A stretch of 29,662 nucleotides of DNA from a virus. Positions within the stretch are counted from its first letter, which is position 1, and each line of letters begins with the position of its first letter. The translations under genes and the position numbers were made by a program. Location: IMG/VR virus record IMGVR_UViG_3300032241_000606, positions 1 through 29,662 of that record, one strand, 5' to 3'. Below the pieces are notes generated by a model. It searched no databases. It worked only from the letters and a program-made list of their open reading frames with translations, and had not been told where the DNA came from. Of this stretch, positions 1-29,533 are shown one piece after another.

Positions 1-858
1 CCTACGCCTACACCTACGCCTACAGGTACAGCTACGCCCACACCCACACCTACTCCAACACCGACGCCTACACCTACGCCTACACCTACACCTACTCCAA
101 CAGCGACAGCTACGCCTACACCTACACCTACTCCAACAGCGACAGCTACGCCTACACCTACACCTACTCCAACAGCGACAGCTACACCTACACCTACACC
201 TACTCCAACGGCCACAGGTACACCCAAGCCTACGCCCACACCCACGCCTACTCCAACGGCCACAGGTACACCCAAGCCTACGCCCACACCCACGCCTACC
301 CCAACGGCCACAGGTACACCCAAGCCTACGCTACCGCCCACAACGGTGCCGCCTACAACAATTCCGCCAACTACGCTACCGCCCACAACGGTGCCGCCTA
401 CAACAATTCCGCCAACTACGCTACCGCCCACAACGGTGCTTACAACTGCGCCGCCAACCACTGTTCCAGTTACAACAGTACCACCAATAGTTACAACTAA
501 ACCTTCAACTACAACAACTGGGCCAACAGGATTAACACAGCCTCAAGCGCAAGCTTTGGCGACGGCGTTAGGCATCCCTGCACTTGCAAATGTGTTTTAT
601 TACGGCAAGCAGTTTGGTGCTAAGTTTGAAAAGGTAGACAAGTATGGGCACTTGATTGAAGAGCCATACAAGCCATTGAGCGTGACAAAAGCAGGGGCTG
701 AAGGGGATGAAAGCGATTATTACGGTAGTGATCTTCCGGTTGCTAAATCTGACCAAACCAGCGAAAATACTGGTAACGACACGGTATCTAAACTTTTAAG
801 TAGTGCAGATAACTCTGTATCCATGGATGATATTCTGAAAATTGTTAGGGGAACATAA
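1..858 (+). CDS. Pro/Thr-repeat virion-type protein, 5' end missing
   Basis: The frame is open from the first base, so the gene starts outside the window; a GTG at 346 is in frame but lies inside the repeat and is probably not the true start. The visible 285 codons split in two. Codons 1-175 are almost only Pro and Thr with some Ala, Gly, Val and Ile, built from three tandem repeat families. Codons 176-285 are ordinary sequence (GLTQPQAQALATALGIPALA, then a Tyr/Lys/Glu-rich stretch and an acidic Ser-rich tail). PT-rich tracts usually form extended, rigid linkers, so a stalk or spacer in a tail or fibre protein is a fair inference, but no fold is recognised. The stop shares its last base with the next start (TAATG), and the next gene's Shine-Dalgarno AGGGGA lies inside this gene's end. 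Confidence 0.8.
   Translation, partial: PTPTPTPTGTATPTPTPTPTPTPTPTPTPTPTPTATATPTPTPTPTATATPTPTPTPTATATPTPTPTPTATGTPKPTPTPTPTPTATGTPKPTPTPTPTPTATGTPKPTLPPTTVPPTTIPPTTLPPTTVPPTTIPPTTLPPTTVLTTAPPTTVPVTTVPPIVTTKPSTTTTGPTGLTQPQAQALATALGIPALANVFYYGKQFGAKFEKVDKYGHLIEEPYKPLSVTKAGAEGDESDYYGSDLPVAKSDQTSENTGNDTVSKLLSSADNSVSMDDILKIVRGT
73..216 (+). repeat. Tandem 36-bp repeat, four units
   Basis: Units at 73-108, 109-144, 145-180 and 181-216 each encode twelve residues of the pattern (A/P)TPTPTPTPTAT. The second and third units are identical at all 36 bases. The first differs in its first codon and the last in three codons. All units keep the reading frame. Confidence 0.9.
199..330 (+). repeat. Tandem 48-bp repeat, two full units and a partial
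   Basis: Units at 199-246 and 247-294 are identical, and 295-330 repeats the first 36 bases with one change. Each encodes PTPTATGTPKPTPTPT. The first unit overlaps the end of the 36-bp array because both begin with the same PTPT codons, as if one array grew out of the other. Confidence 0.9.
331..438 (+). repeat. Tandem 45-bp repeat, two full units and a partial
   Basis: Units at 331-375 and 376-420 are identical and encode LPPTTVPPTTIPPTT. Bases 421-438 repeat the first 18 bases before the sequence diverges. This third family uses a different five-residue rhythm (xPPTT) from the two upstream PT arrays, so the protein is a mosaic of separate minisatellites. Confidence 0.9.
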
Positions 859-7600: not shown

Positions 7601-10600
7601 TTAGACCGCAGGGGTTTGGTATCCAAAGAGCTCAAGCAAGTGGTGGAATCTACATTAGAGTTCCATGACGACGGCACGCCCTACTACAAAATTTTTGATG
7701 AACCCCAAGAGTTCTTGGCTTATGGTTTGACCGACCCTACGTTCCAAAACTTCTTGGAAATCATTCCATCTACTAAAGCAGAGAAAAGCGCCTTTGGTGA
7801 ATTCGTTCGCAAAATCCTAAACCTCTTTAATATCGGCAAGGATAATTACAGCGCACTGCACGATTTGGTTGATGTCACCGACAAGATCCTTGATGCCAAG
7901 AAAACTCCACTGATGCGTTTGGTGGAGTACGGTATGCCACCATTGAAGTCGGCATTACCATCACAGCAGAATGCGGCTGATCAAGCCAAGCGTGATGCGC
8001 AGCAATTTGAAGCACAAACAAAAATCTACGACCGTAGCAATACAGGTGCGGAGATTCTCAAGGCCAATCAAGCCATTCAAATTATAAAGAACCCATCTAA
8101 GGCTTTGGGTGCATTTAAGTATGCATTCAAGGATATGACTTACGCCAACAAGGACTTTATCCTTAACTTTCCCACAACCGACTTTGTGGCTGAAGTATCC
8201 GGTATCCAGTCTTTGAAAGATGCCAACATGCACTTAGAGCGCATGGGCGGCATGCAGAAACAAATGATGTCCGATGTATCAAACTTGATTGAATCAATCG
8301 AGAAGGACTTAGGTGACGATGACGCATTGAAGAACGAATGGACTCAGTTTACATTTGCTGTGCAGGGCATTAACCCAGAAACAACTGGGGCGCAAAACGT
8401 TAAAAACGCATGGAATGCGCTTGGGGCAAAAGGTCAGTCTGCTTTTAAGAAGATCACAAAGTACTACGCCCGCATGTTCGATTACATGGGGCTGATCCTA
8501 GAACAGAATCTGCAAGCTCTCGGCGGGGACAGCTCAGAAACAAGCCATGTGCTCGATCAAGTACGGGCTACGATCAATTCGCAAAACAGAATTGATTCCT
8601 ATGTGTCTTTGTTGCGTGATCAAAATGGCCAATTCTGGGTGGCTGAAAAAGGCGGTGGTTTTTGGACTGCTAAAACCCAAGCCAACCGCAGAAAGTTATT
8701 GGAGTTCTTTGCCAAGGAAAAGAATAAAACAGTTGACCAACTTATAAAAGATGGTGATGTTCGCCAAGGTAATGACTTGGCCTCTTTGCGCAAAGACACA
8801 TTGGAAACAAGCCCACTGCTTCAGCGCATCTTCACATTGATTGATAAGTCAAGTTTCAACACGGGCGATCCAATCCGCAACAAGTCTTACCAAGAAGCGA
8901 TCAAAGAAGATATCTTCCAAATGTGGCTGCATCTGCAACCTGAGAACAGCATCCGCAAGAACTTCATTAACCGTAAGACAATACCCGGATACAACGTTGA
9001 TCTTTTGCAAGGGCTGGCCATCCAAGGCAGTAAGTTCTCATTGCAGATTCCAAGGTTGAAATATGGCCGAGCAGCTCGGTTGGCTGTGTCTGCGGCTAGA
9101 GCGAATACCAAGGATCAGCTTGAGTTGACTCCATACGTTAAGCAGATGGATCAACGGGTTACGAACGCAATGACTCCTGAGAAGGAAGGCAAGATCAGCA
9201 CGGTGGCTCGGTTCTTCACCAACCTGTCGTCGATATATTATTTATCTGAGGCTACTGCAATTACTAACGTATTGAGCGCTTATGAGGTTGGTTTACCCCA
9301 ACTAATGAAGAAGCATTCTCCTGCCGCTGCCGCTGCCGAGCTTGGTAGGTCAATGAAGGTATTTAATCTAACCGGAGTTCGCAATAAAGATGGTGGCTGG
9401 ACTATGCCGACCATACTCAATACCGTGCAAGAAAATGAGGACGATGCACCTGACGTAGCAAATAGGAAAAAAGAAGAGCGCATGGCTCTGAATCAAATGG
9501 TTAACCTTGGGGTTAGCGAGAACACTGCGATCAGAAATCTATTCCACAGGGCTGAGACTCCCAGCGATAGCGATCTTGACAAGGCATTGCGCACTGCTAA
9601 AACGATTGGTACTTTGGCAACGTTTGATATTATCCATGCGTCCGAACGTATCTCTCGTGAAATGATTTATTACTCATCGTTTAGATTGGGTAGAGATAAA
9701 CTCTTAAGGGGCCTTAAAAATAGTCTTAGATATAAAACGTTGAAGACTGATGAGGAAAGAAATGCGGCAGAGCATCAGTTTGTTAAAGACCATATGGATG
9801 ATCTAGTGGCTCAAGCCGCTAAAGATGTGCGTCAATCATTGTTTAACTACAATCCTGCCAACCGTCCATCATTCCTTAAGTCAACTGGCGGTCGCTTGAT
9901 GTTCCAGTTTGCGGTGTACAAACTCAACATTCTGCAATTCCAACTCAGAAACTTGATCGGCATGGTCAAGCCTTTGGACGACAGCACCCGTGCTGAAGCA
10001 ATGCGTGCGTTCTTTGGCTCCATGTTTACTTCATGGACTCTTGGTGGTGTGACCAACATGGCTGGTGGATCTTTACTGATTGGTTTCCTCAGCGCACTTT
10101 ACAACAGAGAAAGAGATAAGTTACCTGCCGATATGCGCCAGCTAGAAGGATTTGAATGGTACAAGCACAACTGGCTCAAGAACTTGGCTGACGTTAGAAT
10201 TGGTAATAGCGACTTAGGCTCAATCGTTAGAGATGGCCCAGTCAACGCATTCAGTGGGCTCGACATCGGTAGCCATACCAATATGTCCGATATATTCTTT
10301 AACCCCAGCAGTGTGGTTGAAGGCCGCACCATGCGGGATCAGATTGTGAATTACTTGACGGCTATTCTGCCGCCTGTACCGTCTATGGTTCAATCCATGG
10401 CGCAAGGTCTCCAGCATTTGTCCGACGGTGAATACTTAAAAGGTATTGAGAAACTTTATCCTGCAGCGTCTATGCGCCACTTGTTACAAGCCTACCGTTA
10501 TTCAACGCAAGGTGAGACAACCAAATACAATCAAACAATCATGACACCTCCCGGTGCTACACGTACTGACAAAGACTTTAGACGCGGTGAGATTCTAGGC

Positions 10601-14045: not shown

Positions 14046-14282
14046 TTACTTCCGTTTCTTGTGCTGACGCATGAACGTGGCAATCGACTCTTCGTATTTC
14101 TTAGCAGGGATTGTTAAACCCCAAAACCAATTGTAAATCGTGGCACGACTCACACCTAGATCATTAGAAATATGATTAACCGATATGTCCCGTTCAATGC
14201 ATAGACGGCCAAGGGCTACACCCAACGAATCACCCGCTACTTTATTCGCTTCAATTAAACGTTGACTGTAGCCGTAGCTCAT
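14046..14282 (-). CDS. Small helix-turn-helix DNA-binding protein
   Basis: A 78-residue protein. The segment VNHISNDLGVSRATIYNWFW at residues 35-54 is a clear helix-turn-helix (a Gly-Val-Ser turn, then the recognition helix RATIYNWFWG), as in Cro/XRE-like or excisionase-like proteins. The C-terminus is basic (RQHKKRK). It is packed between the Cys4 protein gene (two-base gap) and the primase gene (two-base gap), so it is co-expressed with replication. It could regulate the operon or act as an accessory initiator. The target is unknown; it is one of three candidates for the palindromic sites described elsewhere in this annotation. Confidence 0.8.
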   Translation of the reverse strand: MSYGYSQRLIEANKVAGDSLGVALGRLCIERDISVNHISNDLGVSRATIYNWFWGLTIPAKKYEESIATFMRQHKKRK

Positions 14283-21664: not shown

Positions 21665-21692
21665 AGTATAGTGGTACATTAGACTTTGTCAA
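21665..21692 (-). promoter_or_regulatory. Sigma70-like promoter of the replication operon
   Basis: Reading the minus strand, -35 TTGACA (21692-21687) and -10 TATACT (21670-21665) are separated by 16 bases. Predicted transcription start falls at or just before the VRR-NUC ATG at 21657. A second possible -10, TATAAT (21702-21697), lies upstream; its -35 position would coincide with the palindromic operator at 21714-21730. No other promoter is seen for the ten kilobases that follow. Confidence 0.7.
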
Positions 21693-21713: not shown

Positions 21714-21730
21714 CCCTAACATTGTTAGGG
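21714..21730. promoter_or_regulatory. Palindromic site A, perfect 17-bp copy
   Basis: CCCTAACATTGTTAGGG, perfectly symmetrical around its middle base. It lies 21 bases upstream of the -35 box of the replication promoter and over the -35 position of the alternative TATAAT promoter, as expected for an operator or activator site. Confidence 0.8.
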
Positions 21731-21780
21731 GTGGTTGGGGGGTTATGCAGATTCCACGCCCCCCTCATGGTTGGAAAGGT

Positions 21781-21820
21781 CTACGTACGTCAAAAATCTT
21801 TAAAGCGGGGACGTACGTAG
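21781..21820. repeat. Perfect 11-bp inverted repeat with 18-base spacer
   Basis: CTACGTACGTC at 21781-21791 and its exact reverse complement GACGTACGTAG at 21810-21820 surround an 18-base A/T-rich spacer. Each arm also contains the self-palindrome ACGTACGT, so the element could bind two protein dimers as well as form a hairpin. No T-tract follows on either strand, so it is not a standard terminator. Confidence 0.85.
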
Positions 21821-21875
21821 CACGTATAAGTTCGCATCTGCAAGGTTTCCTTACACGTGATTTAAGCAACCCGCT

Positions 21876-22409
21876 TCAAATGTGTAGCTTCATAATAGCA
21901 CGTTCGAGATACCATTGTGCTTTCTTAAGGTCTTCAAGTTCATTGCCCTTGTGCTTGGCTCTAGTAACGTACTTGATAACGTTGCCCAAGTGATAGCCTA
22001 ACTCTTTCGCTTCGATGAAATCGATAGTCTCAATACCGCCAGTCTTGTAATGCGGTGGGTGATTGACGTTGTCGGCCTTTGGCTCTTCCGTCTTAATGCG
22101 GAGCACGGAGATTGATTCAGGTGTGGGCGGTTCTCTATCAAATGACGCTTGCATTCTCGTTTTGTTTCTACCCGAGGACAACAAGAATATTCGTCGTGCA
22201 TATTCTTCAGGAGTCATATCTAACTTCTTGGCTACCTCAGCTTGTGTTGCAGTGATAACTACTTTCTTCTTTGCCTTTCTCTTCTTCTCGTCAGACTTGA
22301 CTTGGTACACATACTGAGTCGTGACTTTGCACTTCTTGGCTACTTCCGCAGTTGTAGCGTCGGGGTTTGCGTTCATGTACTCACGTACGATTTGTGCTCT
22401 ACTTTTCAT
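21876..22409 (-). CDS. HTH protein with C-terminal DUF3310 domain
   Basis: A 177-residue two-part protein. Residues 1-45 look like a helix-turn-helix (DATTAEVAKKCKVTTQYVYQ) followed by a Lys-rich stretch (KKRKAKKK). A second HTH-like segment (TQAEVAKKLDMTPEEYARRI) lies at about 55-74. Residues 113-175 match DUF3310: NHPPHYKTGGIETIDFIEA, then HLGNVIKYVTRAKHKGN and EDLKKAQWYLERAI. DUF3310 is common in phages and sometimes labelled a nucleotide-kinase-like domain, without a firmly established role. The HTH fusion suggests DNA binding or regulation. The ATG lies within the end of the ribbon-helix-helix gene behind AAGGAAC. Confidence 0.85.
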   Translation of the reverse strand: MKSRAQIVREYMNANPDATTAEVAKKCKVTTQYVYQVKSDEKKRKAKKKVVITATQAEVAKKLDMTPEEYARRIFLLSSGRNKTRMQASFDREPPTPESISVLRIKTEEPKADNVNHPPHYKTGGIETIDFIEAKELGYHLGNVIKYVTRAKHKGNELEDLKKAQWYLERAIMKLHI

Positions 22410-22614
22410 TGGTTAGTTCCTTGTTTACATAATCGGTAAGAATTTCTCGTATCTTGGCTTGCTTTGCATACGGATAGCGTGAATCAAAAAAATCCATCAC
22501 ATCTTTCGGCAAGCGCAAGCTCAAGTGCACAAGCGCAGGTTTCTTACCAAGACCCCGCCCATGCTTTTTCTTTTCTATTCCAGTTTTCAACTCGTCGATA
22601 CGGTCGAATATCAT
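22399..22614 (-). CDS. Ribbon-helix-helix-like DNA-binding protein
   Basis: A 71-residue protein. The start at 22614 overlaps the upstream stop (ATGA) and is preferred to an ATG five codons earlier. Residues 29-66 (VHLSLRLPKDVMDFFDSRYP ... REILTDYVNKEL) fit a ribbon-helix-helix: a basic beta strand with alternating residues, then a Leu-Pro-x-Asp turn and two helices, as in BrnA/CopG-like proteins. The N-terminal 28 residues are basic. RHH proteins bind palindromes as dimers, so it is a good candidate for the dispersed TAACA-W-TGTTA sites. No toxin gene is recognised beside it. Confidence 0.65.
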   Translation of the reverse strand: MIFDRIDELKTGIEKKKHGRGLGKKPALVHLSLRLPKDVMDFFDSRYPYAKQAKIREILTDYVNKELTNEK

Positions 22615-22856
22615 TCTTCCTCCTCCCAATATAAATCATTTGTCCATACGATAACAGGCGTATCCTCACCAATGTAGGCGCCCTCAAGATTGTATTCAAT
22701 AAACTCACGTGCATCTTCCATGCTCATGGAGTCACGCTTCATCAAAATATCTCGCATAGCATCGCCATCGTAAACCAATACCTCTACTCTAGTATTGCCA
22801 TTCCAAATGCTCGCTGGCCCAAGAATCGCTTCGTCGAATCCGTCCCATTTCTTCAT
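22611..22856 (-). CDS. Small acidic conserved phage protein
   Basis: An 81-residue acidic protein of unknown function (MKKWDGFDEAILGPASIW at the start). The second half, SMEDAREFIEYNLEGAYIGE followed by DTPVIVW, is a pattern I recognise from small phage proteins of unknown role. It ends in an acidic run (WEEEE). It overlaps its neighbours on both sides by ATGA, so it is part of a tightly coupled run from 23116 down to 21876. Confidence 0.75.
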   Translation of the reverse strand: MKKWDGFDEAILGPASIWNGNTRVEVLVYDGDAMRDILMKRDSMSMEDAREFIEYNLEGAYIGEDTPVIVWTNDLYWEEEE

Positions 22857-23116
22857 TGCTCTAGCCCTTTCATCATCATCACAGTCGCCATAGCTTCAGC
22901 CAATGTCTCTCCGTCTTTTACGATATAGCATTGGTGTGTCCAGTCAGGCCCATTTGGGTTATGCTTGTACGTACTGATCTCAATGATCTTGCCATTCAAC
23001 GCTTGAATCACACCAAACTTCACATCGCTTTCTGAACGTAAGTCGCTCGGGCTTCGTGTGGTTAAAGCGCCTTGGGATTGTTCCCCCATTATCATTTGTC
23101 TTATACTATTTAACAT
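22853..23116 (-). CDS. Small conserved phage protein
   Basis: An 87-residue protein of unknown function. Residues 32-70 form a beta-rich core (VKFGVIQALNGKIIEISTYK, then DWTHQCYIVKDGETL), followed by a Met-rich helix (AMATVMMMKGLE). The first 30 residues are Ser/Arg-rich and probably flexible. The start is near the stop of the membrane-protein gene, behind GAGGAGC. It overlaps the following gene by ATGA. Confidence 0.7.
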   Translation of the reverse strand: MLNSIRQMIMGEQSQGALTTRSPSDLRSESDVKFGVIQALNGKIIEISTYKHNPNGPDWTHQCYIVKDGETLAEAMATVMMMKGLEQ

Positions 23117-23301
23117 TCTTTGTGCTCCTCAATGTGGCTATCAATCTTGCTATAAAACTCTTCTCGTAACCCCTTGTTCTCAATCAAGGTAGTCACAAAT
23201 CTCCTGTGGTTCCTATCTTCCTCCCAATAGTGCAGTGCCATGCCTGTGGCAATACCCGCCCATGCCAATAGGACTATCTCCGTAAGTGTAAATTCAATCA
23301 T
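23110..23301 (-). CDS. Small single-span membrane protein
   Basis: A 63-residue protein. Residues 5-25 (TLTEIVLLAWAGIATGMALH) form one transmembrane helix, followed by a charged cytoplasmic-type region (YWEEDRNHRRF) and a helical acidic tail ending EEHKEC. Location in the inner membrane is inferred. Its start overlaps the end of the 37-residue membrane micro-gene, so two membrane peptides are made from adjacent frames. Confidence 0.65.
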   Translation of the reverse strand: MIEFTLTEIVLLAWAGIATGMALHYWEEDRNHRRFVTTLIENKGLREEFYSKIDSHIEEHKEC

Positions 23302-23407
23302 TGTTCATGCTCCTGTAAATCAACCACATTAAAAATACCACTAGACCTGCGTTCATCAATGCACAAATGAATGCAAAACTCACTACAACAAATGTTAGCT
23401 CAGTCAT
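23294..23407 (-). CDS. Micro-gene: 37-residue membrane peptide
   Basis: ATG at 23407 overlaps the preceding stop (ATGA), and the stop at 23294 overlaps the next start. The product is almost a bare transmembrane helix (LTFVVVSFAFICALMNAGLV then VFLMWLIYRSMNND). Size and composition suit a phage small membrane protein such as an anti-host or lysis-timing factor; no family is recognised. Confidence 0.65.
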   Translation of the reverse strand: MTELTFVVVSFAFICALMNAGLVVFLMWLIYRSMNND

Positions 23408-23544
23408 AGCGGTGCTTCCTCCATCTCAGCGACGGCCTTCTGCTTATCCCTACGTTGTATTTCCTCAAGTATCTTTGGATCAACCCAATCGAAAGGCCAC
23501 CATTGGTTAGCCATAATTTTGGCTATGATTTCTTCGTTGGTCAT
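23404..23544 (-). CDS. Small protein with Trp-rich segment
   Basis: A 46-residue protein. The start at 23544 (MTNEEIIAKI) has Shine-Dalgarno GGAGAAA and overlaps the previous stop by ATGA; a start 18 codons upstream would run back into that gene. The segment NQWWPFDWVDPKILEEIQ is distinctive, followed by a charged helix. Function unknown. Confidence 0.65.
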   Translation of the reverse strand: MTNEEIIAKIMANQWWPFDWVDPKILEEIQRRDKQKAVAEMEEAPL

Positions 23545-23636
23545 GTCGTTTTCTCCAGTATGTGAACAATGTCCTTGAGATTCCAGTTGACGATGCACAA
23601 CTCAAGCCAAATTAAGAATAGCCAAAACGTTCTCAT
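23541..23636 (-). CDS. Micro-gene: 31-residue membrane peptide
   Basis: ATG at 23636 overlaps the upstream stop and TGA at 23541 overlaps the downstream start, both as ATGA. The product begins MRTFWLFLIWLELCIVNW, a short hydrophobic helix, and ends polar (DIVHILEKTT). It fills an otherwise empty gap and is supported mainly by the double overlap. Confidence 0.55.
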   Translation of the reverse strand: MRTFWLFLIWLELCIVNWNLKDIVHILEKTT

Positions 23637-23836
23637 AAGTGCCCCTTCAATGCTAGCTTTACTATTGTGTTGATACTTGCTATGGTGAACTCAGGACTGT
23701 CGTCATGGTCAAAGTGTTCTTGTATACGTTTCTCCACACGTTGTAACGCTTCCTTGTACTCGGTTGCTTTCATTGCGTCTTCTAACTTACCCTCATCCTC
23801 GGGATAATTAAACGATAGTGTTGCTTGCATTTTCAT
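23633..23836 (-). CDS. Small acidic protein, unknown
   Basis: A 67-residue protein. The start at 23836 (MKMQATLSFNYPEDEGKLED) is chosen because GGGAGGGC lies just upstream. The region is beta-like at first, then helical (MKATEYKEALQRVEKRIQEH) and acidic in the centre (FDHDDSPEF). It resembles small phage proteins of unknown role. It overlaps the upstream gene by 29 bases and the downstream micro-gene by ATGA. Confidence 0.7.
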   Translation of the reverse strand: MKMQATLSFNYPEDEGKLEDAMKATEYKEALQRVEKRIQEHFDHDDSPEFTIASINTIVKLALKGHL

Positions 23837-23993
23837 TAGCCCTCCCAATCTTTTTTAACAAAAGCCAGTTCCCATTGTCTCTGACCACACGCACCGCCTT
23901 CACCCACTTGCGCATGTTCGTCCTGTTCTCGTAGTGGGACATGTAATCCACCGCCCACAATTCCCTTGCACGTTTTAACATCTCTGTATTCAT
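23808..23993 (-). CDS. Small basic phage protein with possible frameshift site near its end
   Basis: A 61-residue protein. The core (HYENRTNMRKWVKAVRVVRD, then NGNWLLLKK) resembles a small phage family with an RxxWVxxVRxL...WLL pattern. Near the end the codons TTA AAA AAG form a dnaX-type slippery sequence (A AAA AAG). The zero frame adds IGRANENASNTIV and overlaps the next gene; a -1 shift would add DWEG and stop at the TAATG of the next gene. The ATG follows GAAAGG and operator site B. Confidence 0.65.
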   Translation of the reverse strand: MNTEMLKRARELWAVDYMSHYENRTNMRKWVKAVRVVRDNGNWLLLKKIGRANENASNTIV

Positions 23994-24008
23994 ATATACC
24001 TTTCAACC

Positions 24009-24023
24009 CCTAACATTGTTAGG
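24009..24023. promoter_or_regulatory. Palindromic site B
   Basis: CCTAACATTGTTAGG, perfect over 15 bases (one more C on the left, not mirrored on the right). It contains the stop codon of the 271-residue gene on the minus strand and lies about 15 bases upstream of the next start at 23993. Confidence 0.75.
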
Positions 24024-24834
24024 TAACAATTAAGAACGTATCATCATGTGTTCTGCATCCCACATCCGATACACACTGGTGAACCTCCACCAACTTCAGC
24101 ATACCGAGCTTACCTCTGTATTCTTCGGGGAGTGTATTATCATCATAAGATTGTACATTGTCAATAGTCTTAACAATATATTTACTCCCATTGATATGGA
24201 TAAGTACATGGTTGTCTGTCTTTACCTTTTCCTCAATTGCGTCGATTGCGTTGAACTCCGCAGTTATCTCATAAAATTCTTTGAGCTTACTTAATAGTTG
24301 TGAACTGTCATGTTGCTTGGTCAAAAACGAAACGAACTGCTCCCGAGATTCTTCGAATGTGTACTTATGCATAACATCCCTCAACGAACCTACACAATCC
24401 CCTGCTTTGCTACCCTTGCGGTATCGTTGTTGTTGCACTGCATCTCTAGCTTCTCTATACTTCTCGCCTATTATTTCTTTAATAGACTTAACCGTGAAAC
24501 GTTTCTTTGCTTCACGAATGGCCTTCTTGTTGTCGGACGTGACTGTGAATTCTCCGTTGCGTCTATACTCATTGGGCTTACTAACTCTCGTTGCATTACC
24601 ACCGGCTCGGTTAGAATACTCACGGTTAAGGTAACCAATCTGTTGCCCCTCTGCGTATACGTAAACCGTACCAATGCGATCTCTGAACTGATGAGGTATG
24701 CACTCGAATGACCACGTCGGATTAGTAGTAGCTAACGCAACCACAATCTCAGATAGATTAGAGTCCATCTTCACGTCGGTCTTACTCTTATTCTTCTCCA
24801 TGTAAACACTGGATAGCATCATTGCATCAATCAT
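24019..24834 (-). CDS. Unknown protein of the MoxR/VWA gene group
   Basis: A 271-residue protein of unknown function. The start at 24834 overlaps the previous stop (ATGA); an internal Met at residue 12 is possible. The N-terminal third is beta-rich (TWSFECIPHQFRDRIGTVYV, EGQQIGYLNREYSN), the middle is helical and basic (KKAIREAKKRFTVKSIKEII ... QQQRYRKGSKAG), and the C-terminus is beta-like (HVLIHINGSKYIVKTIDNVQ). I recall similar proteins beside MoxR-VWA genes in phages, but no domain name. It lies at the end of the block that begins with the ATPase gene, so it may belong to the same system. Confidence 0.75.
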   Translation of the reverse strand: MIDAMMLSSVYMEKNKSKTDVKMDSNLSEIVVALATTNPTWSFECIPHQFRDRIGTVYVYAEGQQIGYLNREYSNRAGGNATRVSKPNEYRRNGEFTVTSDNKKAIREAKKRFTVKSIKEIIGEKYREARDAVQQQRYRKGSKAGDCVGSLRDVMHKYTFEESREQFVSFLTKQHDSSQLLSKLKEFYEITAEFNAIDAIEEKVKTDNHVLIHINGSKYIVKTIDNVQSYDDNTLPEEYRGKLGMLKLVEVHQCVSDVGCRTHDDTFLIVT

Positions 24835-24995
24835 TTAAAATTCTCCATTATCATTTCAGTTACCAATACGATAGCGTTGATTGGATCAAGCGCCATCACC
24901 TCAACTTGATTACCATCTCGGTCTTCCACAATATGTGGAATCTTCTCAAGAACATCCGAATCAAATGTGTTCGGATACTTAGTCCATGCTTTCAT
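24831..24995 (-). CDS. Small acidic protein between coupled genes
   Basis: A 54-residue protein found in a gap between two longer genes. ATG at 24995 follows GGAGTTAGT three bases after the previous stop, and its TGA overlaps the start of the 271-residue gene (ATGA). The sequence (MKAWTKYPNTFDSDVLEKIP, then NAIVLVTEMIMENFK) has the balanced composition of a real small protein. Function unknown. Confidence 0.7.
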   Translation of the reverse strand: MKAWTKYPNTFDSDVLEKIPHIVEDRDGNQVEVMALDPINAIVLVTEMIMENFK

Positions 24996-24997
24996 TA

Positions 24998-25213
24998 CTA
25001 ACTCCTCTCTAGTTGATCTTGTTTGTTAAGCATATCGACATATCGCTTAGCCTCATCAATGTCTTTGGTTGTGTAAATCACTTGGTCACTTGCGTGCATC
25101 ATTGCTTTCACAATGTCCACTACCTCATAGTGCATGATGTATAGCTCATCCTTTGGGTTGGGACTTGTTACCCATCGCACCGCATACTTATCTTTTAATG
25201 GTCGGTCTAACAT
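24998..25213 (-). CDS. Small protein with start codon inside palindromic site C
   Basis: A 71-residue protein of unknown function (MLDRPLKDKYAVRWVTSPNP, then YIMHYEVVDIVKAMMH and a helical end). Shine-Dalgarno AAGGGG lies six bases before the ATG, and the ATG is the centre of a TAACAATGTTA palindrome, so a protein bound there could affect this gene. It follows the DUF3150-like gene after nine bases. Confidence 0.7.
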   Translation of the reverse strand: MLDRPLKDKYAVRWVTSPNPKDELYIMHYEVVDIVKAMMHASDQVIYTTKDIDEAKRYVDMLNKQDQLERS

Positions 25214-25218
25214 TGTTA
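25208..25218. promoter_or_regulatory. Palindromic site C, core copy over a start codon
   Basis: TAACATTGTTA on the + strand. On the minus strand the middle reads ATG, the start of the 71-residue gene. The outer arms do not match the 17-bp consensus, so this copy might be partly a by-product of the usual leader sequence. Confidence 0.55.
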
Positions 25219-25222
25219 CCCC

Positions 25223-26074
25223 TTACCAATTGAACTTTCCAATGATGGCATCTACTTTATTCTTCAAGGCATGACGCTCGAACGAATCTTCTTTCAGTCC
25301 ATCCATGTCTGCACCTACCAACGCACGCTCAAGGTCTTGACGGGCCTCCTCCAACTTCGGATCATTGGTCACATTTAACTTGGTCAACAGCGAGCACAAG
25401 TCTTGCGCATTCGTTAGTAGACTGTCGTGATACCGAACCTTCTGATCACTAGCTCGTTCGGTGAGCTTCTCAGACATTGCAGTTAACGTAGTATGCAGAC
25501 GTTCCCACGGTGCACGCATAGCATCAGCGAGTCGCTCGCTGAACTTGGATTCGTATTGTGTTTTGATATCCTCAAGATCACTGATGCTCACATCTAATCT
25601 GAAGTCACCACTCTCAGGGATTGGATCGACGGATCTTCTGAACCCGAACTTACCTTTGACTTCCTCGATATCGGGGTAGTCGCTTGCTTTGTAGAGTGAA
25701 CCTAGACTTACGCTCGCATCCTGTACCAACTGAGGATACATGGCGTAGAAGTTATTGCACATCATATTGAATGTGTGCTCGTGTGCATCCATGGTCTGCT
25801 TGTATTCCATGAATAGCTTAGTAGGTAGAAGTCGTTGACCCTTATCTGCCCAAGGCAATGTGTGTTGGTTGTGATACAGACGCACTCGGGCGGCGAACTT
25901 GTCGATATCCTTACGCATGCTCGTACCCGCAAAAAGATTCTTCTTGGTCTGGCTGGCATCTCGCACTGCTGATGCGTTGCTATTCACAAGGTCAGTTGTT
26001 TCACGGTCAACTTTACTGGCTGGCCATACGCTGATATTCAATTCCACTAATACTGCTGATGAACTAATACTCAT
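25223..26074 (-). CDS. DUF3150-like protein of the MoxR/VWA group
   Basis: A 283-residue mostly helical protein. The N-terminal ELNISVWPASKVDRETTDLV, then KKNLFAGTSMRKDIDKFAAR and RVRLYHNQHTLPWADKGQRL, fits what I recall of phage DUF3150-type proteins, which are typically encoded beside a MoxR ATPase and a VWA protein. The remainder is long helices with an Asp-rich central sheet (DFRLDVSISDLEDI). The start follows AGGAGAAATCAA. A role as the third component or substrate of the ATPase/VWA pair is inferred from gene order; the biochemical function is unknown. Confidence 0.65.
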   Translation of the reverse strand: MSISSSAVLVELNISVWPASKVDRETTDLVNSNASAVRDASQTKKNLFAGTSMRKDIDKFAARVRLYHNQHTLPWADKGQRLLPTKLFMEYKQTMDAHEHTFNMMCNNFYAMYPQLVQDASVSLGSLYKASDYPDIEEVKGKFGFRRSVDPIPESGDFRLDVSISDLEDIKTQYESKFSERLADAMRAPWERLHTTLTAMSEKLTERASDQKVRYHDSLLTNAQDLCSLLTKLNVTNDPKLEEARQDLERALVGADMDGLKEDSFERHALKNKVDAIIGKFNW

Positions 26075-26092
26075 TTGATTTCTCCTGTTAAA

Positions 26093-26344
26093 TTATGAAC
26101 GCTCGGGTTTACCCGCTAGCTTAGCCATTCGGTATTTCTCGTTAGGGATAACCTTGGCATTGAACACCGTGTCATTCTCATACACGTGGTATGTGTGATA
26201 CGCTTCGCCTGTTGTGTTGCCATTGGCATCTTTCGATACGTACCTGTCCTCGTATCTCTCTGCCTTGCTCAGTAGCTCTAACAATGTTATGGCGTCCTTG
26301 GTCGGCAACGCATAGTCTTGGTATCCAATAGTTACAATCATCAT
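26093..26344 (-). CDS. Small protein between VWA and DUF3150-like genes
   Basis: An 83-residue protein. The start at 26344 (MMIVTIGYQDYALPTKDAIT) follows GAGAGGTGATGAA and matches the expected beginning; longer forms run back into the VWA gene. The sequence is beta-strand first, then LLELLSKAERYEDRYVSKDA and HTYHVYENDTVFNAKVIP, ending MAKLAGKPERS. It seems to be a conserved small member of this gene group; function unknown. Palindromic site D lies inside it. Confidence 0.7.
   Translation of the reverse strand: MMIVTIGYQDYALPTKDAITLLELLSKAERYEDRYVSKDANGNTTGEAYHTYHVYENDTVFNAKVIPNEKYRMAKLAGKPERS
26279..26289. promoter_or_regulatory. Palindromic site D, core copy in coding sequence
   Basis: TAACAATGTTA inside the 83-residue gene; on the minus strand it spans codons for Ile-Thr-Leu-Leu. 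The outer bases match only on one side. Confidence 0.5.
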
Positions 26345-26375
26345 TTCATCACCTCTCAGTTGTGCTCGGTTAATA

Positions 26376-27566
26376 TTAATTGTTGATGTGAATTGTTTTG
26401 CCATTCGGTGAAACGACATCATTACCTCCTACGATAGTCCACAGAATTGGCGCAGTCCAGTTGCCACCCCAGTCACTGCCTACGTATCCATCGGTAAGAA
26501 CAATGATGCACTCAGGCACAATCTTCTTTTCTTCGAGATAGTCGGACACGCAACTCGGCGATGTACCCCCACCGTCCTTGGGCTTTGTAGAACTAACAAT
26601 GTTAGCCACCGCATTGCCTTCGTACTCTTCGTGACCTGCAACATCTGAACCCCAGTAGATCAAGTCAACCTTCTCAGGATGCACCTCCTCTGCTACACCT
26701 TTGACTTCACCGAGGAACTCAGATAATTCTTGTTGTCCTACTGACCCCGATGTATCTACGGCTATCACGATATGACCAACTCGCTCACCGATCATGCTCG
26801 GCATGTACATACCAGTCGATAGATAACGTCGGTTAACCCTGCGCCATGACGATGTGTCCTTGGCATTGCATGTGGCTTTCACGAACTCACGCAAGACTTC
26901 ACGCCAATCCACCTTGGGGTTGAGTAGATCTTCAAGCTCTCGGTCACCACCACTTCTACCCTTACCGGCAACTTTGTGTTGTGCCATGAGTCCTTGTCTT
27001 ATGGCTTGGTCAATATCCCTAGCCAACTCACGTTTCTCCGCATCGGTCATGCCTTTCGTTGCTTCTTCCCAGTCATGCTCATCGAACCCACCTTCGCCCG
27101 ATCCATCATCGTTCTGCTTCAGTAGGTCGAACACTTGCTTGGAATTCATACCCCGATACTTCTCATCGATCAAGCCCATCGGCTCACCCTTCTTCTCGCC
27201 ACTCTTCCACCGTGGCATGGTGATCACGGTTTGCTCGGGGTCTGTATCTTGTAGCATCAGGTTGATCACGTAATCACACGCACCATTCGCCATCATTGCA
27301 TTCTCTTCGTGTAGCTTCTTATACGTAGTCAAGTGACGATACATCTTGTGCGACGCTTCGTGTGCAATCACAAACGCAAGCTCCTTCTCGGTCAACTCGT
27401 TGATGAACTTACGCCCATACCACTCGTCACGTCCGTTAGTCCTAGCAGTCGGTGTGTTGTCATCCACATACGTACGTCCCACCATCAAGATACCGCTGAG
27501 CAATGCGAACTTGGGGTTACGCATCAAGCTGATCTTGGCCTTCTGTATTTTTCGTTCCTCTAACAT
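26376..27566 (-). CDS. VWA protein with HEXXH metallopeptidase-like domain (DUF2201-type)
   Basis: A 396-residue protein. The N-terminal domain has IAHEASHKMYRH at 67-78 (zinc motif H69-E70-x2-H73) with a likely extra ligand D98 in NGACDYVIN. A Gly/Asp-rich linker (150-165) follows. The C-terminal domain is a von Willebrand A fold: MIDAS D271-TSGS at 271-275, GGGTS at 332-336 and LTDGYVG at 357-363. This architecture is found in phage and bacterial VWA partners of MoxR ATPases, where the ATPase lies next to it, as here (twelve bases upstream). A chaperone or remodelling role on a metal-containing or virion target is plausible but unproven. The start codon lies in palindromic site F, and site E lies in the coding sequence. 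Confidence 0.88.
   Translation of the reverse strand: MLEERKIQKAKISLMRNPKFALLSGILMVGRTYVDDNTPTARTNGRDEWYGRKFINELTEKELAFVIAHEASHKMYRHLTTYKKLHEENAMMANGACDYVINLMLQDTDPEQTVITMPRWKSGEKKGEPMGLIDEKYRGMNSKQVFDLLKQNDDGSGEGGFDEHDWEEATKGMTDAEKRELARDIDQAIRQGLMAQHKVAGKGRSGGDRELEDLLNPKVDWREVLREFVKATCNAKDTSSWRRVNRRYLSTGMYMPSMIGERVGHIVIAVDTSGSVGQQELSEFLGEVKGVAEEVHPEKVDLIYWGSDVAGHEEYEGNAVANIVSSTKPKDGGGTSPSCVSDYLEEKKIVPECIIVLTDGYVGSDWGGNWTAPILWTIVGGNDVVSPNGKTIHINN
26593..26605. promoter_or_regulatory. Palindromic site E, 13-bp copy in VWA gene
   Basis: CTAACAATGTTAG, perfect over 13 bases, inside the VWA domain coding region (codons for Asn-Ile-Val-Ser). The frame differs from sites D and I, so the sequence is not fixed by one peptide. 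Confidence 0.65.
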
Positions 27567-27572
27567 TGTTAG
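27560..27572. promoter_or_regulatory. Palindromic site F, 13-bp copy over VWA start codon
   Basis: CTAACATTGTTAG on the + strand. On the minus strand AGGAG-CTAACA-ATG-TTAG, so the site spans the gap between Shine-Dalgarno and start and could control translation or transcription of the VWA gene. AGGAGCTAAC is also seen before the start at 21341, so part of the match may come from a common leader. Confidence 0.6.
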
Positions 27573-27578
27573 CTCCTA

Positions 27579-28643
27579 TTAAAGTAAGTCTTGATTCTTC
27601 GCAACCCAATCACTGAACGCCTTGCAACTGAACGCTATCGCTTGCTTGCTTGGTGTCTTCGCAATGTTGATCGCAAACACGGCTTGCCACTCGGCATCGA
27701 ACCGTTGTAGATACTCCATGAATGGAGTGATGCTCTCCTTGGTCATACGTGCAATCGCACCGAATACCACAATCGCACAAGCACCGGCTGATGTTGGTAT
27801 CTGCGTAGTCTTAGGGTTAGCAATCGTCGCTTCCCATGTCGGCAGTTGATCCGAGAACTCGATGTACGCTTGCATATCCCGAGCACCGGCTTCACCGATC
27901 GCACCAGTCAATGCGGATATCACCGTATCAGGATCGTTATCCTTACGAGTCCTAACAATGTTAGATGCAGTCTCTAGCGAACGAGGGGAAACAAACGCCT
28001 TCTGATTACTCTTAGGTGAATAGATGTATGGGTTATCTCCGGATCCACCATCGGTATAGCTAGCCAACACATGAGGGAACCGATTCACCCATGCAATCAC
28101 CTCGGGCTCGATGTTCTTACCCATCGCCCACTCAATCCACTCATCGGCATCGGGTTTGCGGATACGCACGGGAACCAAACGATTACGACTATGTGCTTTC
28201 AGGGAGTCACCCACACCGTCGGTCGAAAGATTACCAGTCAAGAACACAATGGTCTCCTTGGGTATTGGGATATCACCGAGTCGAGGGTTTGCCTTCTCTA
28301 GCATGGGATGGAGCATATTCTTCACAGGGTCTGCACCTTTGGTGAACTCGTCGAGCATGATCACCAGTGGTTTGCCTTCGTGAATCTTGAACCTAGCATT
28401 GGGGTAATACTTGGTAGTTTTGGTGTCGTGGTCAATCACAGGCATCGCAATGTCACCCAAATCCATGTTCGGCACGTCGATGTAGGCATAGTCGTAGCCC
28501 ATGCCGTTGGCTATACTCTCTAATAGGGATGACTTACCAATTCCCGGCTCACCCTCCAATAGAAAACGAGTCTCAGGGTTGGATTGAATGAGCTTTGATG
28601 CTTGCTTCAATGTAATTGACTTACCGAAATTTACTTCTGACAT
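27579..28643 (-). CDS. MoxR-type AAA+ ATPase
   Basis: A 354-residue ATPase. Walker A GEPGIGKSS at 31-39, Walker B VIMLDEFTKG at 94-103, sensor 1 TGNLSTDGVGD at 136-146, and the second-region motif SRNRLVPVRI at about 152-161. The sequence after Walker A (YIDVPNMDLGDIAMP) with substrate-loop-like spacing fits the MoxR/CobS group, which works with VWA proteins to remodel or insert cofactors into targets. The start follows AAGGAACTAAAA and is the first gene after a good promoter. Site G is inside it and site H lies in its leader. Confidence 0.9.
   Translation of the reverse strand: MSEVNFGKSITLKQASKLIQSNPETRFLLEGEPGIGKSSLLESIANGMGYDYAYIDVPNMDLGDIAMPVIDHDTKTTKYYPNARFKIHEGKPLVIMLDEFTKGADPVKNMLHPMLEKANPRLGDIPIPKETIVFLTGNLSTDGVGDSLKAHSRNRLVPVRIRKPDADEWIEWAMGKNIEPEVIAWVNRFPHVLASYTDGGSGDNPYIYSPKSNQKAFVSPRSLETASNIVRTRKDNDPDTVISALTGAIGEAGARDMQAYIEFSDQLPTWEATIANPKTTQIPTSAGACAIVVFGAIARMTKESITPFMEYLQRFDAEWQAVFAINIAKTPSKQAIAFSCKAFSDWVAKNQDLL
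27951..27964. promoter_or_regulatory. Palindromic site G, in ATPase coding sequence
   Basis: CCTAACAATGTTAG, one base short of the 15-bp form (the last base is A instead of G). It encodes Asn-Ile-Val-Arg on the minus strand in the same frame as site E. Confidence 0.65.
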
Positions 28644-28667
28644 TTTTAGTTCCTTCTAGGTTAATAT

Positions 28668-28684
28668 CCCTAACAATGTTAGGG
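28668..28684. promoter_or_regulatory. Palindromic site H, perfect 17-bp copy in the MoxR operon leader
   Basis: CCCTAACAATGTTAGGG, perfectly symmetrical. It lies 25 bases upstream of the ATPase start and about 40-60 bases downstream of the predicted transcription start, where a bound protein would act as a roadblock. Between 28644 and 28764 no gene is seen. Confidence 0.8.
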
Positions 28685-28731
28685 GGTTGCTGACAAACAC
28701 AATTCACTTCGTTCATTTAGTTTTTAATAAC

Positions 28732-28760
28732 ATTGTACCACAGAATAATACCCGAGTCAA
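28732..28760 (-). promoter_or_regulatory. Sigma70-like promoter of the MoxR/VWA operon
   Basis: On the minus strand -35 TTGACT (28760-28755) and -10 TACAAT (28737-28732) with a 17-base spacer, near consensus. A degenerate palindrome copy (TAACATTGTAC, 28728-28738 on the + strand, nine of eleven core bases) covers the -10 box. The predicted leader is about 80 bases and contains site H. Confidence 0.7.
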
Positions 28761-28764
28761 GCAT

Positions 28765-28920
28765 TTAGTCTTGACGCAGGACATAAGCCTTCACTGTTTT
28801 AAGCGTGGGGTATTGGATAGCAAAGCGTTCTTTTGCCTTGGTCATGCTTCGGCATTCGTAAGTTTCAGCTATCCACATGCCAAACCTCGGGCTGAACCCT
28901 GTTACGTAGTACTTGTTCAT
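28765..28920 (-). CDS. Small protein, 51 residues
   Basis: ATG at 28920 follows GAGGAGTAACG. The product (MNKYYVTGFSPRFGMWIAET, then YECRSMTKAKERFAIQYPTL) is a balanced basic small protein of unknown function. The gene ends five bases before the -35 box of the MoxR operon promoter. No homologous family is recognised. Confidence 0.7.
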   Translation of the reverse strand: MNKYYVTGFSPRFGMWIAETYECRSMTKAKERFAIQYPTLKTVKAYVLRQD

Positions 28921-28929
28921 CGTTACTCC

Positions 28930-29109
28930 TCACTTGAAATGTTGGTGATATTTCATGATGCACTCGGCAAACTCTTGGGTTTTCACAAGTTCCTCGAATA
29001 CGCTCCTCAGTTGCTTGTCTCTGCCTATACGCAAGATCAAATCAATGGCGGGCTTTAGTTCTTCACTTGGCTCAACGTACCAAAATGCTTCTTGGTTTTT
29101 ATTACTCAT
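28930..29109 (-). CDS. Small acidic helical protein
   Basis: A 59-residue protein. The start at 29109 (MSNKNQEAFWYVEPSEELKP) has GGAGAGGATAAG upstream; a longer form would need to overlap the membrane-peptide gene. It is mainly helical (AIDLILRIGRDKQLRSVFEE). Function unknown. Confidence 0.7.
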   Translation of the reverse strand: MSNKNQEAFWYVEPSEELKPAIDLILRIGRDKQLRSVFEELVKTQEFAECIMKYHQHFK

Positions 29110-29111
29110 GC

Positions 29112-29207
29112 TTATCCTCTCCTGCAGATAAATAAGTCTGCACATACCACAATAACCGCAATCAGAAAGATCACGCGTGATATCAATTCTCTCCGTCGGT
29201 CATTCAT
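29112..29207 (-). CDS. Micro-gene: 31-residue membrane peptide
   Basis: ATG at 29207 overlaps the previous stop (ATGAATGA), behind GGAGAACAAT, and the stop at 29112 lies two bases before the next start. The product is a basic N-terminus (MNDRRRELISR) and one hydrophobic helix (VIFLIAVIVVCADLFI), a single-span membrane peptide with a positive-inside start. Function unknown; it fills an otherwise empty 90-base gap. Confidence 0.65.
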   Translation of the reverse strand: MNDRRRELISRVIFLIAVIVVCADLFICRRG

Positions 29208-29406
29208 ATTGTTCTCCTTTCGTTAGTGCTATCATCTTCCTTGCAGTTTCGTAAGTTAAGTCCTCAGCAATCACCTCAACTCGCTCTATTGTTCTTGGGT
29301 GCTCCATCATTGAGTCCCACACTGGCTTGGTCGTGGCTATTAAACTGAATGGTTGTCCAATTATTCTGTACACAATCCATTCTGGTAGATCATCAAAGTC
29401 GTTCAT
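29200..29406 (-). CDS. Small acidic protein, 68 residues
   Basis: A 68-residue protein of unknown function (MNDFDDLPEWIVYRIIGQPF, then RTIERVEVIAEDLTYETARK). Shine-Dalgarno-like GGGGAAGAAG precedes the ATG and is part of palindromic site I. It overlaps the upstream gene by 14 bases and the downstream micro-gene by a few bases. Confidence 0.7.
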   Translation of the reverse strand: MNDFDDLPEWIVYRIIGQPFSLIATTKPVWDSMMEHPRTIERVEVIAEDLTYETARKMIALTKGEQYE

Positions 29407-29533
29407 CTTCTTCCCCTAACAATGTTAGGGCTTCCAATATGTTGATATGAGCAAAGTCATAATCGCCTTCCCTAATGTTGCGCTCAGCATCCTTGATGAG
29501 TTCAAGTGCTTTTAAGTAGTCTCCTTCAGTCAT
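29393..29533 (-). CDS. Small helical protein, 46 residues
   Basis: ATG at 29533 behind AAGGAGAACAACG; it overlaps the preceding partial gene by eight bases. The product (MTEGDYLKALELIKDAERNI, then EGDYDFAHINILEALTLLGE) is a helical, acidic small protein; the spacing recalls a tetratricopeptide-like pair of helices. Palindromic site I is inside the 3' part. Confidence 0.65.
   Translation of the reverse strand: MTEGDYLKALELIKDAERNIREGDYDFAHINILEALTLLGEEDERL
29414..29430. promoter_or_regulatory. Palindromic site I, perfect 17-bp copy
   Basis: CCCTAACAATGTTAGGG, perfectly symmetrical, eight bases upstream of the start at 29406 and inside the end of the 46-residue gene (Leu-Thr-Leu-Leu-Gly). Confidence 0.8.

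Follow-up and report, generated by a model that had tools for sequence, protein, structure and literature searches.

The stretch of DNA analysed here (the window) comprises positions 1 to 29,662 of the IMG/VR virus record IMGVR_UViG_3300032241_000606, and carries in its right 8 kb nine dispersed copies of the palindrome TAACA-N-TGTTA, most likely operators of an undescribed small phage protein for which the name PalR is introduced. This part of the window reads leftward and encodes an AAA ATPase (27579–28643, minus strand; phrog_1297, PF07728), a DUF2201 metallopeptidase/VWA protein (26376–27566, minus strand; PF13203, PF09967), a DUF3310 protein and two proteins that are unknown, with DNA polymerase, helicase and primase following further leftward. 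It is the front part of the phage early region, and the ATPase gene belongs to what would be the operator-bearing early operon. The leftmost site (21717–21727) reads TAACATTGTTA within CCCTAACATTGTTAGGG and is centred at about −64 from a sigma-70-like promoter (21665–21692, minus strand; TTGACA-16-TATACT, a consensus match with an inferred transcription start) that reads into the open reading frame (ORF) 21657–21334. The second (24011–24021) covers the stop codon of ORF 24834–24019 and lies upstream of ORF 23993–23808, the third (25208–25218) covers the start codon of ORF 25213–24998, and the fourth (26279–26289) is found within ORF 26422–26093, in codons for ITLL. Two sites belong to the VWA/metallopeptidase gene, one internal in codons for NIVS (26594–26604) and one over its start codon at 27566 (27561–27571), and another lies within the ATPase gene in codons for SNIVR (27953–27963). 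The last two are full 17-mers, the one at 28671–28681 in the ATPase leader, centred at about +49 from a promoter upstream of that gene (28732–28760, minus strand; TTGACT-17-TACAAT, a TG preceding the −10 box, also a consensus match), and the one at 29417–29427 just upstream of ORF 29406–29200.

A pattern scan of the whole window returned these nine exact copies and no further copy at one mismatch, for which 1.27 copies are expected by chance. An earlier reading made from the letters alone (the sequence-only reading) had reported all nine as well as their absence from the first 21.7 kb, and both observations were reproduced, as were its three 17-base palindromes (21714, 28668, 29414) and one 15-base palindrome (24009). 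Its chance expectation of 0.01 was slightly low, as 2,000 first-order Markov sequences of the window gave a mean of 0.04 exact 11-bp cores (maximum 2), but the conclusion that the array is not due to chance stands. Among the 43 palindromes of the form 5-N-5 in the window, TAACA is the sole half-site seen more than twice. The placement of copies over start codons was likewise correct (25208 in ORF 25213, 27561 in ORF 27566), with the amendment that the copy at 24011 covers a stop codon, and translations agree with three of the four coding copies named (26279, ITLL; 26594, NIVS; 27953, NIVR), whereas the copy said to encode Leu-Thr-Leu-Leu could be matched to no gene.

Related loci were collected through the ATPase, the best 80 of 286 being taken, and fall into classes by site: 45 have TAACA-N-TGTTA (class 1), 32 have TAACA-NN-TGTTA (class 2), two have TGACA-NN-TGTCA (tg), and one has a single site. 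Up to 24 copies occur per locus (L012), the 13 records of at least 50 kb have 9–23 each, and usually one class prevails in a genome, e.g., 17:0 or 0:19 (class 1:class 2). No other 5-N-5 palindrome exceeds two copies in the class-1 ATPase loci. The sites are also exact, with 83 perfect and 3 one-mismatch copies in the zone of the window and five class-1 relatives that have a clade-A PalR. The array is confined. In the nearest long relative, G001 (63,570 bases), which aligns to most of the window, all 11 sites lie between 19,952 and 29,639, and a single block of 7–26 kb contains the sites in each of 11 longer records. Equal site density over the whole genome, which the sequence-only reading had named as a refutation, is not what the long relatives show. 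Since G001 spans 63.6 kb, the window is a genome fragment.

PalR was pinpointed by comparing the gene content of class-1 and class-2 genomes. It is the first gene of the early operon in both, and forms one divergent family of about 157–194 amino acids in which two tryptophans are invariant or nearly so. The window stops short of the gene on its right: PalR of locus L083 begins about 2.6 kb ahead of the ATPase, and only 1.0 kb of the window lies there. Scans with PalR alone gave 45 new loci, all 45 with at least one site and 43 with at least two. The 17-bp DNA pattern alone gave 81 stretches, of which 40 contain PalR and, among the other 41, 22 have a single site. PalR is found in 52 of the 80 ATPase loci; in 19 of the 28 loci without it the sequence ahead of the ATPase is shorter than 2.6 kb, and L134, where this sequence measures 10 kb but lacks PalR, has one site only. 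Of 26 records searched for both sites and PalR, 13 are of at least 50 kb; at least nine sites occur in all 13 and PalR in 11, the other two being G010, which starts inside its site block, and G037. Eight loci that were met through the pattern search alone (L003, L008, L010, L012, L014, L034, L053, and L073) have two PalR genes each and up to 24 class-1 sites. In L083 a strong intrinsic-terminator-like hairpin (8112–8141) is located about 230 bp downstream of PalR, with a site 10 bp before it, and PalR may be transcribed there as a short unit by itself.

PalR gave no match in Pfam, PHROGs or NCBIfam save stray matches of single members, the lowest E value against sequences in PDB was 0.22, and no match to BFVD was obtained with its structural models at E 0.001. 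AlphaFold models of two PalR proteins are almost all helical, with 5–6 helices over 158–170 residues (mean pLDDT 80.8 and 75.6). A tblastn search of the isolated phages in INPHARED with one PalR found none at E 0.1, and the clade-A PalR pattern met four stretches in a collection of 84,980 genomes, none of them a PalR relative.

The class of site goes with PalR. Two changes, the minimum, suffice for the three site classes on a PalR tree built from 50 ATPase-bearing genomes, as compared with 8 on the ATPase tree, 9 for VWA, 9 for p283, 7 for p271, 8 for the DUF3310 helix-turn-helix (HTH) protein, 6 for the ribbon-helix-helix (RHH) protein, and 5 for DNA polymerase. When the same seven trees are restricted to PalR-bearing genomes the numbers are 5, 6, 6, 5, 6, 5, and 4, respectively (FastTree throughout; the gene sets differ partly between trees). 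Among 173 distinct PalR proteins the class labels need 7 changes versus 45 for shuffled labels; one side of this tree holds 93 class-1, one class-2 and 6 unclear members, the other 52 class-2, 8 class-1, one tg, and 12 unclear members. The RHH and DUF3310-HTH proteins, which the sequence-only reading had put forward as binders, were rejected as specificity determinants on their 6 and 8 changes. The small HTH protein (14046–14282), its third candidate, clusters with genes of 6 of 7 class-1 and 2 of 5 class-2 genomes.

The sites are not evenly placed along the early operon. Over 79 class-1 loci, two sites occur in the approximately 334 kb from −8 to −1 kb of PalR and none from −8 to −2 kb, i.e., on its structural side, and density is 2.3–2.4 per kb in the 2 kb from the PalR start, about 0.2 per kb at 12–13 kb and 0–0.26 per kb beyond 10 kb; 53 class-2 loci show the same trend with a slower fall (loci with two PalR genes left out). 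The 400 bp ahead of PalR contain a site in 69 of 72 class-1 and 31 of 50 class-2 loci, and the 300 bp past its stop codon do so in 68 of 72 and 44 of 50. In 12 sequences with 168 sites, 54 sites are intragenic as against 64–86% of random positions, and for 43 sites a start codon follows within 60 nt, for 36 of these within 20 nt.

The most pronounced regularity of site placement concerns predicted promoters. At 54 promoters of PalR (score at least 10) there are 39 sites at −100 to −40, 21 at +20 to +80 and one near −214, the stretch from −40 to +20 being empty. At 69 non-redundant other promoters on the same strand, 34 sites lie at +40 to +60 (control 2.1), 17 at −100 to −60 (control 4.0) and again none at −40 to +20, and no such geometry was seen at 16 promoters on the opposite strand. 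Of 81 strong promoters, 73 have a site at −100 to −50 or +20 to +80 (windows taken from the PalR promoters), mostly near −75 or +48: 48 downstream only, 11 upstream only and 14 on both sides, leaving 8 with neither. The proportion of flanked promoters depends on promoter score, being 27/142 at 9, 24/42 at 10, 39/41 at 11, and 35/41 at 12. At the 14 doubly flanked promoters the paired sites are 103–147 bp apart, and 10 of the 14 spacings are 115–122 bp. Two promoters of the window, at 28760 (+49) and 21692 (−64), obey the geometry, and for a third match at 24164, inside a gene, the nearest site is at +113.

Intragenic sites are kept or lost largely by synonymous change, and selection is on nucleic acid, DNA or RNA, and not on protein. 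In the ATPase gene the class-1 core is present at the SNIVR codons in 43 of 45 distinct class-1 genes, and SNIVR residues are likewise found in 43, with the identical spelling TCT AAC ATT GTT AGG in 40 (genes were counted once and scored for both site patterns). Class-2 genes mostly keep the residues (23 of 30) while the class-1 core is mostly lost (kept in 6 of 30), as other spellings are used, e.g., TCG AAC ATT GTC CGG. The class-1 core at the NIVS position of the VWA gene is found in 36 of 47 distinct class-1 genes and 0 of 30 class-2 genes, the residues differing too. Similarly, the core at LTMLG of p283 is present in 37 of 41 class-1 genes and 1 of 29 class-2 genes, with the LTMLG residues kept in 10 of 29 class-2 genes; at another position of p283 the class-2 core is found in 14 of 29 class-2 genes and 1 of 41 class-1 genes. 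The sequence-only reading had argued from differing frames and encoded residues that selection acts on DNA, and for nucleic acid as such this is upheld by the relatives. The comparison comes close to the check on relatives that this reading had proposed.

The array resembles two known regulatory systems in part. According to the published accounts (PMC6550527, PMC9283540), cluster A mycobacteriophages (L5, Bxb1, TipsytheTRex) have 20–30 dispersed short operators, found in promoters, in small gaps between genes and close to the gene of the repressor. Related phages differ in site specificity, which goes with the repressor, and these stoperators are asymmetric sequences of 13–14 bp, oriented with transcription and bound by an HTH monomer, in phages that are temperate by means of integrase or parABS. 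The PalR array is similarly dispersed, often with fewer than 20 copies, its specificity follows the putative regulator, and sites are found within genes and over start codons. Unlike stoperators, the sites are palindromic with A and T both common as the centre base on the sense strand, they occupy one early block and flank promoters, and neither integrase nor ParA is found in 25 records. As to the HTH, PalR gave no match to an HTH family, and the fold comparison of its models was not decisive. The gal operators of GalR (PMC4693257) are centred at −60.5 (OE) and +53.5 (OI), 113 bp apart, and flank the promoter without overlap, and looping between them represses. In the PalR array, paired sites flank the promoter at a similar spacing at 14 of the 81 strong promoters, and 59 have a site on one side only. 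In contrast to GalR, PalR sites are also intragenic, and none of 67 PalR proteins matches an HTH of the LacI type or the LacI/GalR family in Pfam or NCBIfam. PalR is about half the size of GalR.

The gal-like pair spacing together with the stoperator-like intragenic and start-codon sites leads us to propose that PalR is an autoregulated repressor of the early operon that acts through dispersed operators by looping and roadblock, a reading in which we place moderate confidence. From the association of sites and protein we infer that PalR, probably as a dimer, reads two TAACA half-sites 1 bp apart in duplex DNA. It would occupy sites flanking its own promoter and most of the strong early promoters, near −75 and/or +48, as well as intragenic sites and those that cover start codons. 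With rising levels, PalR would most likely shut off its own gene and the early operon: flanking operators may be bridged by PalR into a repression loop, and PalR at internal sites may block elongating RNA polymerase, which would give a timed shut-off. A multi-site operator or stoperator system had already been suggested by the sequence-only reading, and a stoperator-like system fits best. It is tempting to go further and to regard PalR as a new family, perhaps with a new fold, that builds a repressosome in virulent phages by bridging promoter-flanking and intragenic sites over about 10 kb, and whose specificity can shift through dimer geometry, with TAACA kept, the spacer widened from 1 to 2 bp, and matching operators rewritten genome-wide; this extended version is tentative and we would not presently bet on it.

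Several alternatives were weighed. Class I activators bind in the region −100 to −40, where 39 sites of the PalR promoters are located, and nearly all strong promoters carry a site. PalR could accordingly be conceived as an activator or timing switch of early and middle promoters that recruits host RNA polymerase from the −75 site, with the +48 and intragenic sites tuning or organising the operon. We consider this unlikely, as the commonest position at other promoters is +40 to +60, 48 of the 81 strong promoters have a downstream site only, and sites at start codons and within genes are of no help to activation. Equally improbable in our judgement is that the sites are DNA organisers, with PalR coating or bridging the early region into a nucleoprotein domain for protection, segregation or insulation, and regulation being secondary. 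The location of most sites away from strong promoters, their exactness (83 exact to 3 one-mismatch copies), their outward grading from PalR and the weak GapR likeness of one PalR in 67 (E 0.003) all suit an organiser, but the tight promoter geometry would be unexpected of a mere organiser and ParA is found in 0 of 25 records. Among known systems, KorB of IncP plasmids is also partly similar, as it controls many promoters, from a distance too, through roughly a dozen scattered palindromes. KorB is, however, a ParB-family protein with a ParA partner, and the absence of ParA (PF13614) from the 25 records sets the PalR array apart; ParB was not searched for.

The palindromes might also work at the RNA level, folding into CCCUAAC-AWU-GUUAGGG hairpins close to the start codons of early mRNAs, where they would be targets of PalR or obstacles to ribosomes. 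A 7-bp stem is available to the 17-mer, one copy is listed as terminator-like, and the 43 sites within 60 nt upstream of start codons, 36 of them within 20 nt, would be well placed for this. At 413 thinned class-1 sites, however, the arms show no clear covariation beyond a symmetric preference (z 1.7, 0.8, 1.8, and −2.6 at ±6, 7, 8, and 9), and this independent variation favours duplex DNA read by a dimer over a paired RNA stem. Furthermore, the first site of L083 lies upstream of the predicted PalR promoter, and among the 5-N-5 palindromes of the class-1 ATPase loci no repeated stem of other sequence with compensating arms was seen, and we consider hairpins very unlikely in spite of the covariation of class-2 arms at ±6. 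Least probable of all, and barely credible, is that a host protein binds the sites, e.g., a MazE-like antitoxin such as MtvA of plasmid pPAD8, and that PalR merely modulates. MtvA does autoregulate and bind the identical 11-mer TAACATTGTTA in an electrophoretic mobility shift assay (PMC11826091), and this operator role of the same word in an unrelated system also counts in favour of the main reading. MtvA is unrelated to PalR and belongs to a toxin-antitoxin operon, whereas the PalR models are almost all helical and PalR has no MazE match in Pfam; site class moreover shifts between close relatives and tracks PalR, which a host factor fits only if the hosts differ likewise.

A number of observations weigh against PalR as the loop- and roadblock-forming repressor. 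With regard to the protein, at E 0.01 none of the 67 members matches any HTH family of Pfam, NCBIfam or PHROGs, no DNA-binding family is recognisable apart from the resemblance of one member to the nucleoid protein GapR, and the best matches of the two models to solved folds (Z 5.4 and 6.0) are within the usual background for helical models. With regard to the association, L153 has five sites although the 5 kb ahead of its ATPase lack PalR, and G037 (63,122 bases; L371–L374) has no detectable PalR and yet has 7 class-1 and 2 class-2 sites scattered genome-wide, with about 0.14 class-1 sites expected. A subset of clade-B genomes carries both spacers (class 1:class 2 is 5:10 in L306, 5:6 in L312, 5:3 in L354, and 4:14 in L323), L154/G007 combines class-1 sites with a clade-B PalR beside mixed-spacer relatives, and L297 combines 12 class-2 sites with a clade-A PalR. 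The promoters are sigma-70-like consensus matches with start sites inferred from the −10 box, the flanking windows were chosen from PalR's own promoters before being applied to others, and sites at about −75 would equally suit an activator. Promoters of score at least 10 are flanked by only 119 of the 601 non-redundant sites (20%, against 4.5% in the shifted control), so that most sites need another role. Further, 6 of 30 distinct class-2 ATPase genes retain the class-1 core, the centre base of the 413 class-1 sites is A in 245 and T in 157 on the sense strand, perhaps a bias from start-codon overlap, and in 222 class-2 sites the ±6 pair covaries (z 6.2); we read this covariation as a mixture of specificities, perhaps of subclasses, e.g., L127 with GTAAC flanks, but pairing is possible there.

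Phages bearing the array are probably virulent. Tyrosine integrase (PF00589), serine recombinase (PF00239), and ParA (PF13614) were found in 0 of 25 records with positive controls, although the records may be incomplete, and together with the lack of a PalR relative in the 84,980 genomes of the clade-A scan this makes the phages look virulent. Lysogenic immunity and partition were rejected on the same grounds, which disfavours the partition mark that the sequence-only reading had held possible. A search for single-subunit RNA polymerase (PF00940) gave no information, as the control genomes were without match as well. The cultured Rhizobium phage RHph_TM3_14A (L199, record 10890–60889) also has ATPase, metallopeptidase, polymerase, and helicase genes, and carries another palindrome, GTTACC-N5..7-GGTAA(C), in 26 copies across early and structural genes. 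It was rejected as a cultured relative with the system, as the 50 kb read has no PalR below E 1, the palindrome is another one, and no site lies within 130 bp of six promoter-like matches. In KPP25, Rollin, and phiA008, no dyad with 5-base half-sites reached five copies in a 50-kb stretch of each. No description of this array was found in the literature, most subscription papers lying outside the search.

To our knowledge, the dispersed operator arrays described in phages mainly provide immunity in temperate ones. Were a comparable array present in phages that show no sign of lysogeny, timed shut-off in the lytic cycle would be a further use of such arrays. The joint change of specificity in a regulator and its ten or more operators is a long-standing question of operator evolution, and 173 distinct regulators with three site classes, including a 1-bp change of spacer, offer a natural test bed for such co-change. 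The association also gives an unnamed family of proteins a function that can be tested.

Two minor observations concern the window itself. PHROG labels the family of the VWA/metallopeptidase gene "HNH endonuclease", a name that looks wrong since Pfam gives a DUF2201 metallopeptidase and VWA domains. Finally, the left end of the window (1–120) has repeats of the CCTACACCTACG type.

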